From assembly GCF_000027165.1 (NCBI RefSeq), contig NC_013853.1, positions 620,001 to 684,000 of the forward strand: a DNA stretch of 64,000 nt. Direction: 5' to 3'. Positions 20,431 through 22,415 of the stretch are shown here, in pieces. Every line of letters starts with the position of its first letter. Position 1 is the stretch's first letter. The notes below the pieces were generated by a model. It had not been told where the DNA came from, did no database searches, and saw only the letters and a program-made list of their open reading frames with translations. Position numbers and translations under genes: made by a program. Source of the DNA: Streptococcus mitis B6. GTDB taxonomy: Bacteria; Bacillota; Bacilli; Lactobacillales; Streptococcaceae.

Positions 20431-20514
20431 AATCTAGTTATTAAACTTTAAACTAGTATTAGTTGGTAACCAGATACGTGTAAAGTAATAATAAATGAAG
20501 TGAGTCTTTAACAA

Positions 20515-20652
20515 CTATTTCCCGCAGTAGTGATAGCCTAGATAATAACAAAGTTATTATCTAGGCCGGAATTTTTGAGACATATGGCTCAAAAATTAGG
20601 GATGAAATTCCTACAGGAAGTTGCTCCCGTCCGCACAATCTAAGGGAAATAG
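20515..20652 (+). ncRNA. candidate structured RNA between vex2 and vex3
   Basis: A 9-bp outer stem CTATTTCCC (20515-20523) / GGGAAATAG (20644-20652) encloses two perfect hairpins: a 14-bp stem at 20536-20566 with an AAA loop, and AATTTTTGAG / CTCAAAAATT at 20570-20597. A third arm GGGA...TCCC (20599-20630) holds TTCC-TACA-GGAA. The strand is assumed from the operon. No riboswitch, T-box or known ncRNA signature was recognised. Confidence 0.5.
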
Positions 20653-20715
20653 TAAAAAAATAATTTATATAAGTTATAAGACATTGAAATAGAACAGCAT
20701 CTAGAAAGGGAATCT

Positions 20716-22095
20716 ATGTTACACAACGCATTTGCCTATGTTACAAGGAAGTTTTTCAAATCGATTGTCATCTTCCTGATTATTCTCATCATGGCGAGCT
20801 TGAGTTTGGTTGGTTTGTCAATCAAGGGAGCTACTGCCAAGGCTTCTCAGGAGACCTTTAAAAATATCACCAATAGCTTCTCCATGCAAATCAATCGTCG
20901 CGTTAATCAAGGAACGCCACGTGGTGCTGGGAATATAAAGGGTGAAGATATCAAAAAAATCACCGAAAACAAGGCCATTGAGTCTTATGTGAAACGCATC
21001 AACGCTATCGGAGATTTGACTGGCTATGAACTCATCGAAACGCCAGAAACCAAGAAAAATCTGACTCCTGATCGTGCCAAACATTTTGGAAGTAGCTTAA
21101 TGATTACAGGTGTCAATGACTCCTCTAAAGAAGACAAGTTTGTCTCGGGCTCTTATAAACTAGTTGAAGGAGAGCACTTAACAAACGACGACAAGGACAA
21201 GATCCTCCTGCACAAGGACTTGGCAGCCAAACACGGCTGGAAAGTAGGGGACAAGGTCAAACTAGACTCTAATATCTACGATGCAGACAATGAAAAAGGT
21301 GCCAAGGAAACAGTTGAAGTGACAATCAAGGGACTCTTTGATGGTCATAATAAGTCAGCAGTAACCTACTCACAAGAACTCTATGAAAATACAGCTATCA
21401 CTGACATTCACACTGCTGCAAAACTTTATGGATACACAGAAGACACAGCTATTTATGGGGACGCAACCTTCTTTGTAACAGCGGACAAGAACTTGGATGA
21501 TGTTATGAAAGAGTTGAATGGCATCAGTGGTATCAACTGGAAGAGCTATACACTAGTGAAGAGCTCCTCTAACTACCCAGCTCTTGAGCAATCCATCTCT
21601 GGTATGTACAAGACGGCCAATCTCCTCTTCTGGGGTAGCTTGAGTTTCTCAGTTCTTCTCCTTGCCCTCTTGCTCAGCCTTTGGATCAATGCCCGTCGCA
21701 AGGAAGTGGGTATTCTCCTCTCTATTGGTCTCAAGCAGGCAAGTATCTTGGGTCAATTCATTACTGAATCCATCTTGATTGCCATCCCTGCTCTTGTGTC
21801 TGCTTACTTCTTAGCTACTTACACAGCGCGTGCAATCGGAAATACTGTTCTTGCCAATGTCACTTCAGGTGTTGCCAAGCAAGCTAGCAAGGCTGCTCAA
21901 GCCTCTAACCTTGGTGGTGGTGCAGAAGTAGACGGCTTTAGCAAGACCTTGTCGAGCCTAGATATTTCCATTCAGACATCAGACTTTATCATCATCTTTG
22001 TCCTTGCCTTGGTTCTAGTGGTTCTCGTTATGGCGCTTGCTTCAAGCAATCTCCTTAGAAAACAACCAAAAGAACTCTTGCTGGATAGCGAATAA
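20716..22095 (+). CDS. vex3: Vex3, ABC transporter permease (FtsX/MacB type)
   Basis: 459 residues, paralogous to Vex1 in layout: one N-terminal helix (about 14-36), a large external domain, then three helices in the last 170 residues ending RKQPKELLLD. SD AAAGGGA lies 6 nt before the ATG. It is separated from vex2 by the folded element, so its expression relative to Vex1/Vex2 may be tuned independently. Heterodimerisation with Vex1 around Vex2 is expected from the family. Confidence 0.93.
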   Translation: MLHNAFAYVTRKFFKSIVIFLIILIMASLSLVGLSIKGATAKASQETFKNITNSFSMQINRRVNQGTPRGAGNIKGEDIKKITENKAIESYVKRINAIGDLTGYELIETPETKKNLTPDRAKHFGSSLMITGVNDSSKEDKFVSGSYKLVEGEHLTNDDKDKILLHKDLAAKHGWKVGDKVKLDSNIYDADNEKGAKETVEVTIKGLFDGHNKSAVTYSQELYENTAITDIHTAAKLYGYTEDTAIYGDATFFVTADKNLDDVMKELNGISGINWKSYTLVKSSSNYPALEQSISGMYKTANLLFWGSLSFSVLLLALLLSLWINARRKEVGILLSIGLKQASILGQFITESILIAIPALVSAYFLATYTARAIGNTVLANVTSGVAKQASKAAQASNLGGGAEVDGFSKTLSSLDISIQTSDFIIIFVLALVLVVLVMALASSNLLRKQPKELLLDSE

Positions 22096-22147: not shown

Positions 22148-22165
22148 TATCTGTTTTATCTTGAT

Positions 22166-22358
22166 AATACTCTTCGAAAATCTCTTCAAACCACGTTAGC
22201 TTCACCTTGCCGTAGGTATATGTTACTGACTTCGTCAGCTTCCATCTGCAACCTCAAAACAGTATTTTGAGCTGACTTCGTCAGTTCTATCTACAACTTC
22301 AAAGCAGTGCTTTGAGCAACCTGCGGCTAGCTTCCTAGTTTGTTCTTTGATTTTCATT
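22166..22358 (-). repeat. BOX element with two boxB copies, clipped end
   Basis: Minus-strand A-B-B-C. The outer edge of boxA stops at TTTTCATT and lacks GAGTAT. It lies between vex3 and vncR, upstream of the regulator start. Confidence 0.88.
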
Positions 22359-22415
22359 TCAGGATGAAACAGAGATGAATTACAAGAAATTTAAAGGAAT
22401 GTGAAAGATTTTTCT

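Follow-up and report, generated by a model that had tools for sequence, protein, structure and literature searches.

A covarying branched fold between vex2 and vex3 of Streptococcus mitis B6, very probably a copy of a short interspersed streptococcal repeat

The window analyzed in this study comprises 64,000 nt of Streptococcus mitis B6 (NC_013853.1, positions 620,001 to 684,000, forward strand), and feature coordinates are given as window positions. Two of its genes, for which the names vex2 and vex3 were taken over from a preliminary description of this DNA, are separated by a gap of 285 bp (20431–20715), exactly as had been described. A further repeat between vex3 and a response-regulator gene (22165–22360) is presumably of the BOX type. 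The preliminary description proposed that the middle of the vex2-vex3 gap be folded. The minimum free energy of 20500–20700 (201 nt) was −59.0 kcal/mol, compared to a mean of −32.5 (sd 3.6) for 200 dinucleotide shuffles (z −7.3), and none of these 200 shuffles folded as stably as the native sequence. The folded structure at 20515–20652 is real and goes beyond chance. Its parts and both flanking genes are listed in Table 1.

Table 1. Genes and structural elements at the vex2-vex3 locus (window positions; pairing statistics refer to 102 aligned copies where indicated).
Feature	Position	Strand	Basis or remark
vex2, ABC transporter ATPase, 210 aa	19798..20430	+	upstream gene
GAAGTGAG motif 5′ of the fold	20497..20504	+	by eye, unscored
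Structured core of the repeat, branched fold	20515..20652	+	folding and covariance model; match 20513-20655, 151.3 bits
P1, closing stem, 9 bp	20515..20523 with 20644..20652	+	9/9 pairs changed on both sides; 98.5% of cells paired (102 copies)
P2	20527..20532 with 20634..20639	+	6/6 pairs changed on both sides; 95.0% paired (102 copies)
Hairpin A (P3), 14 bp, loop AAA	20536..20566 (20536-20549/20553-20566)	+	12/12 modelled pairs changed on both sides; 98.5% paired
P4, CGGA/TCCG	20567..20570 with 20630..20633	+	99.5% paired (102 copies)
Hairpin B (P5), conserved loop GAGAC-NNNN-GGCUC	20571..20596 (20571-20579/20588-20596)	+	8/9 pairs changed on both sides; 99.7% paired
Arm C (P6 and P7), conserved AUGAA and UUGCU between them	20599..20628	+	P6 99.0%, P7 88.4% of cells paired
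P6, GGGA/TCCC	20599-20602/20625-20628	+	inside arm C
P7, AAATTCC/GGAAGTT	20605-20611/20616-20622	+	inside arm C; A.G mismatch
CUAA, conserved unpaired strand ahead of the P1 3′ strand	20640..20643	+	consensus nntaAG
vex3, FtsX-like permease	20716..22095	+	downstream gene

The layout is that of a junction, with P1 outermost, P2 within P1, hairpin A as a side branch and P4 around hairpin B and arm C. The closing stem of 9 bp and the third GGGA/TCCC arm, which had both been noticed before, are present, the latter with an additional inner helix (AAATTCC/GGAAGTT), and P2 and P4 are helices beyond those previously described. Of the two perfect hairpins reported earlier, the one of 14 bp (hairpin A) stands, whereas hairpin B comprises 9 bp and reaches the reported 10 bp only if 20570 pairs with 20597, as it does in the minimum-energy fold. 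In P1 a tenth pair (20514:20653) is possible. P2 of the vex2-vex3 copy includes one A.A mismatch at a position which is fully paired in several of the other copies described below, and one position of P7 is an A.G-type mismatch in most copies. The letters of hairpin A differ from copy to copy with the pairing being kept, while unpaired letters around the junction are conserved (the GAGAC/GGCUC loop, AUGAA/UUGCU, CGUCCgcac and UAAG). Motifs similar to GAAGTGAG (e.g., GCGAACGAAGTGAGC and GCGAGCGAAGCGAGC) were seen 5′ of the core in many, yet not all, of the copies displayed (by eye, unscored). The 13-codon frame from ATG 20602 that had been pointed out does exist, but is not common to other copies: in an alignment of 14 copies (A1) an extra base in arm C occurs only in the two vex3 copies, and a small ORF in this arm was rejected as a candidate.

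Directly 3′ of hairpin A follows CGGAATTTTT, and together they form the one terminator-like site returned by a terminator scan (expected 0.2, sd 0.5). Its T-run lies five bases from the stem and is identical with the 5′ strand of hairpin B. A promoter scan gave 4 matches in 501 bp compared to 1.8 expected (sd 1.4), one of which is in sense and inside the gap (20463–20492). Neither the terminator-like nor the sense promoter-like site is evidence of function.

The stretch is not confined to this locus. With covariance model R1 at least nine distinct copies were found in the S. mitis B6 genome (2,146,611 bases), four of the 13 matches being the reverse strand of counted copies, and further matches in this genome were also found by DNA similarity. 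Besides the copy between vex2 and vex3, the nine comprise single copies before tpx, dnaK and glyS, a tandem pair before purE, a copy which follows a T-box leader and precedes trpE, one in antisense between infB and rbfA, and one at genome position 1,661,589 with a duplicated hairpin; the names of infB and rbfA and of the upstream partners (grpE, psaA, glyQ) are our reading of the sequence. Using the covariance model built in this analysis, 131 of 147 Streptococcus genomes matched at E ≤ 0.001, with copy numbers in the genus being lower bounds which include reverse-strand matches (up to 21 candidates were scored per genome). In a sample of the order, matches were obtained for 28 of 198 genomes and 3 of 54 genera, and 26 of these 28 genomes belong to Streptococcus. 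Outside this genus, genome G299 of the order sample had a single weak match. Genome G268, from another family of the order, had at least 16 matches (strands pooled), which suggests transfer or an older origin. The 139 copies examined further were taken from the best-scoring matches listed and are therefore not a random sample, and reverse-strand matches were not counted as copies; one unit of genome G082 (locus L178), which has no model match, stands outside the 139. We consider it very probable that the stretch in the vex2-vex3 gap belongs to a family of short interspersed repeats of streptococci with a core of about 140 nt and no conserved reading frame.

Within the 102 aligned copies, 97.0% of 4894 pair cells were standard pairs compared to 72.7% after shuffling, 44 of 51 pairs were changed on both sides, and both-side changes were found in 1174 cells compared to 311 in shuffled data, whereby the alignment was fitted to the structure by the model and leans towards it, unlike the MAFFT alignment A2. 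The covariation score was 0.640, with 0.171 for shuffled and at most 0.095 for all slid versions; in the covariation counts identical rows were collapsed, leaving 97 distinct copies. In a set of 11 copies 92.5% of 558 cells were paired, and 16 pairs varied on both sides compared to a shuffled mean of 8.8. Covariation is thus above both the shuffled and the slid controls, which is the behavior of a structured RNA family, and the core is under strong selection for pairing. Among the non-Watson-Crick cells, which are not independent of each other, G.U (87) exceeded A.C (26). This excess points to the given strand as the folding strand; it concerns the strand only and applies to RNA and single-stranded DNA alike. 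The four copies of the S. mitis B6 genome with a reverse-strand match reached 28.9–33.7 bits there, compared to 99–158.5 bits on the given strand.

Dispersed copies, like an absence of covariation, had been named in advance as grounds for giving up a structured RNA at this site. Covariation is present, and so are the dispersed copies. The element is a covarying fold and a dispersed repeat at once, two properties which had been treated as exclusive. In the wider sense it is a mobile interspersed repeat, with dispersed copies and with empty sites in relatives, and the earlier idea of a MITE-like element is borne out by the copy number of at least nine in one genome, by the occupation of only part of the vex2-vex3 gaps (10 of 68) and by duplications around sister copies.

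Some copies depart from the common form. In L113 and in L097/L099 arms B and C are enlarged. The inserts in arms B and C of L113 (1501–1714) are complementary, with a duplex energy of −33.4 compared to a shuffled mean of −19.1 and none of 300 shuffles as low; the insert duplex of L099 is weaker (−23.2, a value that stands without a control). As unconstrained folds differ between the enlarged copies, no alternative structure is claimed for them. At the vex site short and long forms occur in different strains, with arm B being enlarged in L069 and both arms B and C in L097/L099, which looks like an exchange of arms between copies. In L026 and L035, both from genome G010, a hairpin GAAATAGTTCGGGGAACTATTTC replaces the 3′ part of arm C.

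Among the 68 named vex3 loci the element was present in ten, always in sense. These are two S. pneumoniae loci, Streptococcus sp. M334, Streptococcus sp. 2342 and six members of a group resembling S. infantis (S. infantis DD18, PA11599CN2, D6t1_180914_B1, SK970, UC921A and Streptococcus sp. HMSC074B11). In 53 of the 68 loci the gap between vex2 and vex3 is only 9–55 bp long, and hence vex3 has no need of the element. One locus is ambiguous owing to a broken frame, and in four (L039, L053, L056 and L057) the gap is filled by a BOX-like repeat of the type found at 22165–22360. The open frame of vex2 is about five codons shorter in occupied loci (214 vs. 219), and in the infantis group it has 241 codons compared to mostly 246–248, some 268. 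As the intergenic sequence has undergone rearrangement in occupied loci, clean insertion borders are unreadable there.

The 139 copies fall into 78 clusters of locus and orientation, defined by the downstream gene and the orientation; they are based on longest-ORF gene calls and take the commonest orientation of each cluster, and one locus may be split. Clusters without a duplicated hairpin comprise 29 in sense and 9 in antisense to co-directional genes, 9 between convergent and 2 between divergent genes and 1 without a downstream gene. The corresponding numbers for clusters with a duplication are 4, 7, 11 and 4, with 2 clusters lacking an upstream gene. Between co-directional neighbors, copies without duplication are therefore in sense in 29 of 38 clusters (binomial p 0.0017), compared to 4 of 11 clusters with duplication (Fisher p 0.025), p values which overstate independence as the copies are related and the clusters rough. 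In the 73 sense copies without duplication the core ends at a median of 44 nt from the downstream start, and at 60 nt or less in 49 of them. The nine antisense co-directional clusters without duplication include L110 as well as a recurrent locus represented by nine copies. L110 (positions 371,231–371,369 of the S. mitis B6 genome) lies in antisense between the genes read as infB and rbfA and runs counter to the sense trend.

The downstream genes do not belong to one gene family or pathway, as would be the case for a riboswitch or a gene-specific leader. Profile searches identified dnaK, groEL, purE, dnaA, smpB, glyS, asnS, tpx, metE, trpE, a gene with a YhbY domain and a DUF386 gene, and dnaJ, clpP, folD, dapA, pth, rfbB, nrdF and others were read by us from protein starts. 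In L113 two T-box leaders in series (748–973 and 1155–1379) stand ahead of the element and trpE, the first of which, with a score of 92.9, falls just short of the cut-off of 93. A cis-regulator of the Vex3 level, which had been one of the earlier suggestions, is possible for the vex copy, but with 78 clusters the element is not tied to vex3, and a vex3-specific regulator finds no support in its distribution.

The gap before dnaK is a site shared by many species. It is occupied in sense in 16 of 30 species and has no model match in 14 of 30 (30 of 31 genomes are counted here, G015 being without the locus). L308 has its match beyond dnaK and not before it, and L293 carries a reduced form missed by the model. 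By eye two clearly different forms can be told apart in this gap. The element is not universal even before dnaK and may have arrived there repeatedly. From 12 copies of the dnaK gap, RNAalifold recovered P1, P2, P4, P5 and arm C unprompted. In this dnaK-only alignment 4 of 43 pairs were compensated and the covariation term of RNAalifold was slightly unfavorable (+0.45), so that the 12 copies are too uniform to prove covariation at a single site. L302, L308 and L309 contain another palindromic insert (GAACGTT...AACGTTC) upstream of dnaK. At some loci, such as grpE-dnaK, the fold has probably been adopted by the host.

How such a repeat may spread is suggested by the flanks of its sister copies. 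When about 250 nt upstream were compared with 155 nt downstream, and direct repeats scoring at least 15 were taken as duplications, 29 of the 139 copies were flanked by a duplicated hairpin of 16–32 bp, compared to 0 of 139 in mismatched control pairings (maximum score 14). Six copies with flank repeats of 11–14 (L186, L203, L207, L247, L251 and L275) were counted as lacking a duplication, although some of them may carry a decayed one. All 29 flank repeats fold as hairpins and 27 of them surpass at least 98% of their shuffles in stability, the exceptions being L148 and L161. Many of the duplicated hairpins look terminator-like by eye, with an A-run, a stem-loop and a T-run, and the unit begins immediately 3′ of the duplicated hairpin. 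The S. mitis B6 copy at 1,661,589 (L109) shows a perfect duplication of 31 bp. Duplication-bearing copies match the model as well (L160, L199, L109 and L182, 86–123 bits). In genome G082 each unit end gave 21 matches, mostly 95–100% identical, which pair into units of mostly about 293 bp. The vex copy (L107) has no duplicated hairpin, its best flank repeat of 8 equaling the control median of 8, and no terminal inverted repeats like those of IS1182 were seen when its ends were searched by eye. With neither a target-site duplication nor such visible ends, any route of arrival proposed for this copy is putative.

A candidate for the mobilizing enzyme was found in genome G065, which encodes a transposase of the IS1182 family (NF033551, 431 bits, cut-off 270; also PF05598). 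The ends of this transposon (L219) are CAGACTGAAGACAAAG and its inverted partner, set within a duplicated hairpin. The units of G065 end in CAGACTGAAGAAAAAG at the 3′ side, in the same direction and with 15 of 16 positions shared with CAGACTGAAGACAAAG; the likeness of unit ends to those of an IS1182 transposon was seen by eye, for units of G065 and of G082. From the ends and from the target we infer that an IS1182-type transposase moves the duplication-bearing units. None of 20 IS1182-like loci contained the unit-end motifs in exact form. In G082 the two hairpins flanking the IS1182 copy (L220) differ from each other, and an autonomous partner with the ends of the G082 units was dismissed as both end searches in this genome led to short units only. 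L109 differs in its ends from the G065 transposon, and no partner for it was found. A brief look at the four IS1182-like copies of the S. mitis B6 genome linked none of them to the element.

At the curated thresholds of Rfam the window contains two tRNAs and no riboswitch, and 12 other loci yielded T-box and SSRC8_2 matches only (E ≤ 0.01). The earlier statement that no known family matches was nearly right. RF02616 (SSRC8_2) matches the 3′ part of the vex copy (20562–20662, model positions 138–242 of 281) with 40.3 bits, which is below the cut-off of 72. The sister copy L163 of genome G066 matches RF02616 in full length and above the cut-off (76 bits). RF02616 and the repeat have hairpin B (GAGAC..GGCUC), arm C (GGAAGU) and letters at the 3′ end in common, whereas the RF02616 consensus structure is without P1, P2 and hairpin A of the present model and has a repeated hairpin as its outer pairs. 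IMES-4 and three other Rfam matches (E 1.5–3.7) were taken as chance. When viral contigs were searched with a single exact pattern for hairpin B, two stretches matched.

SSRC8 of S. pyogenes was detected by Northern blot, and circular RACE was used to map its ends; for about nt 142–250 BLAST homologs in many streptococci are given (Table 4 of PMC3675131). In the passages concerned it is treated as a putative trans-acting sRNA and a mobile repeat goes unmentioned (PMC3675131). According to the literature, a gene for a cell envelope proteinase precedes SSRC8 in S. pyogenes. The same hairpin (AUACUGA..UCAGUAU) stands at both the beginning and the end of the RF02616 consensus, and UUUU follows its second copy. 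An insertion that duplicates its target would leave such a doubled hairpin behind if it hit a terminator, and SSRC8 would then be the transcribed 3′ end of the upstream gene. This suggests that SSRC8 may be a MITE lodged in a terminator and transcribed from the gene in front of it.

Taken as a whole, a mobile folded repeat which serves as a cis-acting mRNA module at vex appears to be the best explanation and a moderately probable one. Members bearing a duplication would move as non-autonomous elements of the IS1182 type, land beside terminator-like hairpins and duplicate them. The vex2-vex3 copy would derive from this family, its recognizable ends and its duplication having been lost, and it would be transcribed within a vex1-vex2-vex3 mRNA. 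RNA structures between cistrons can stop exonucleases or may themselves be cleaved. Placed between the stop codon of vex2 and the ribosome-binding site of vex3, the vex copy would most likely serve in cis as a structural module of a passive kind, slowing exonucleases or offering a cleavage site, whereby decay and translation of vex3 would be modestly uncoupled from vex1-vex2; the proposal leaves the direction of the effect on vex3 unspecified. This cis role, read from the sequence, is put forward tentatively as a substantial possibility which falls somewhat short of being probable. The sense bias of copies without duplication, the closeness of their cores to the next start codon and the occupied dnaK gaps argue in its favor. 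That the fold is kept across the family would most likely be due to retained copies being those whose transcripts fold in this way. Alternatively, the vex copy might be a decaying MITE relic without effect, the fold being needed only for movement (as RNA or as single-stranded DNA) and this copy being too young to have lost it. The near-identical multi-copy units of G082, the model matches of duplication-bearing copies and the patchy presence at vex2-vex3 fit such a relic. The occupation of the dnaK gap in 16 of 30 species, with the junction and four compensated pairs recovered there by RNAalifold, and the sense bias of copies without duplication speak against it, and a folded interior is not known to be required by a DDE transposase. 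We regard the relic as possible but on balance doubtful.

An sRNA gene or a processed sRNA similar to SSRC8 of S. pyogenes, the latter also among the earlier suggestions, is considerably less likely. The partial match to RF02616, the match of L163 above the cut-off and the experimental detection of SSRC8 (PMC3675131) argue for it; yet SSRC8 itself looks like the transcribed 3′ end of an upstream gene, judged by its doubled hairpin, and this doubled hairpin is absent at vex2-vex3, even if the promoter-like site in the gap could allow a start. A dedicated cis-regulator of vex3, i.e., a riboswitch-like or protein-binding leader which senses a signal, is very unlikely. It would account for a strongly covarying fold in sense 60 nt upstream of vex3, and with hairpin A and CGGAATTTTT a terminator within the fold is conceivable. 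The same fold, however, adjoins many unrelated genes, 58 of the 68 vex3 loci do without it, the window has no Rfam riboswitch at curated thresholds, and the T-run is displaced from its stem and belongs to hairpin B. Even less can be said for a self-cleaving ribozyme that separates upstream and downstream mRNAs, which we consider highly improbable: the conserved unpaired letters around a multi-helix junction would suit it, but no Rfam ribozyme is among the matches and conserved loops alone do not imply catalysis. A bolder extension of the favored mobile module would be a mobile regulatory RNA, a genus-wide module carried to hairpins by IS1182-type transposition and adopted repeatedly between operon genes (before dnaK, groEL, glyS, tpx, trpE and vex3), in which a specific host factor or a catalytic activity acting on the conserved loops (GAGAC/GGCUC, AUGAA/UUGCU and UAAG) might set the ratio of upstream to downstream product. 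We offer it as a speculation with a limited chance of being correct.

MITEs of bacteria are commonly viewed as DNA debris whose ends can fold. In the present case the multi-helix core of a repeat that lacks a conserved reading frame has persisted despite a near-complete sequence turnover in several stems, which raises the testable question whether the fold is needed for movement, for tolerance or for regulation by the host. The dnaK gap is a place to test function. For the published sRNA SSRC8 the data suggest a new reading, namely a transposon copy in a terminator, and the flanks of sister copies provide natural examples of whole-hairpin duplication beside an IS1182-type element.

Elements of this kind are known in principle, both as MITE-like structured repeats and as hairpin targeting by IS1182 relatives. 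In the literature surveyed, which consisted of open papers (subscription papers and preprints lay outside its scope), no recognized account of the repeat family or of a mobile SSRC8 was found; as far as the passages covered go, neither the family as a whole and its covarying junction nor the duplication of whole hairpins in streptococci nor a connection with SSRC8 was recognized there. In the relevant passages of PMC2267715 the repeats of S. pneumoniae are BOX, RUP and one genic family, and S. pyogenes has no cluster; the main text of the D39 annotation contains neither 'vex' nor 'SSRC' (PMC6212727). BOX, RUP and SPRITE are short interspersed pneumococcal repeats predicted to fold when transcribed, and apart from BOX relatives in S. 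suis they are nearly absent from streptococci beyond S. pneumoniae and S. mitis (PMC3049150). The new family shares the species group with them but differs in sequence and occurs in most genomes of the genus sample. A search of the S. mitis B6 genome with 20450–20720 gave no match at the BOX-like repeat (~22165–22360). By its published description SPRITE consists of an 18-bp duplex and a U-rich tract (PMC3049150), compared to the branched fold found here.

Correia elements and ERIC are examples of folded MITE RNA within mRNAs, and transcripts bearing Correia elements are cleaved by RNase III at the terminal repeats (PMC10969869). This cleavage is a model for the proposed effect in cis, but it centers on terminal inverted repeats, whereas the streptococcal repeat, unlike Correia elements and ERIC, has kept a core of several covarying helices. 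IS1272 and TnSha1 target hairpins without a sequence consensus, several of them terminators, and replace or partly delete the target hairpin (PMC5678879; PMC4923244). The duplication-bearing sister copies of the repeat, which are without a transposase gene, likewise lie at hairpins, many of them terminator-like. In contrast to IS1272 and TnSha1, the whole hairpin is duplicated at these copies, which corresponds to pathway b in Figure 13 of PMC5678879.
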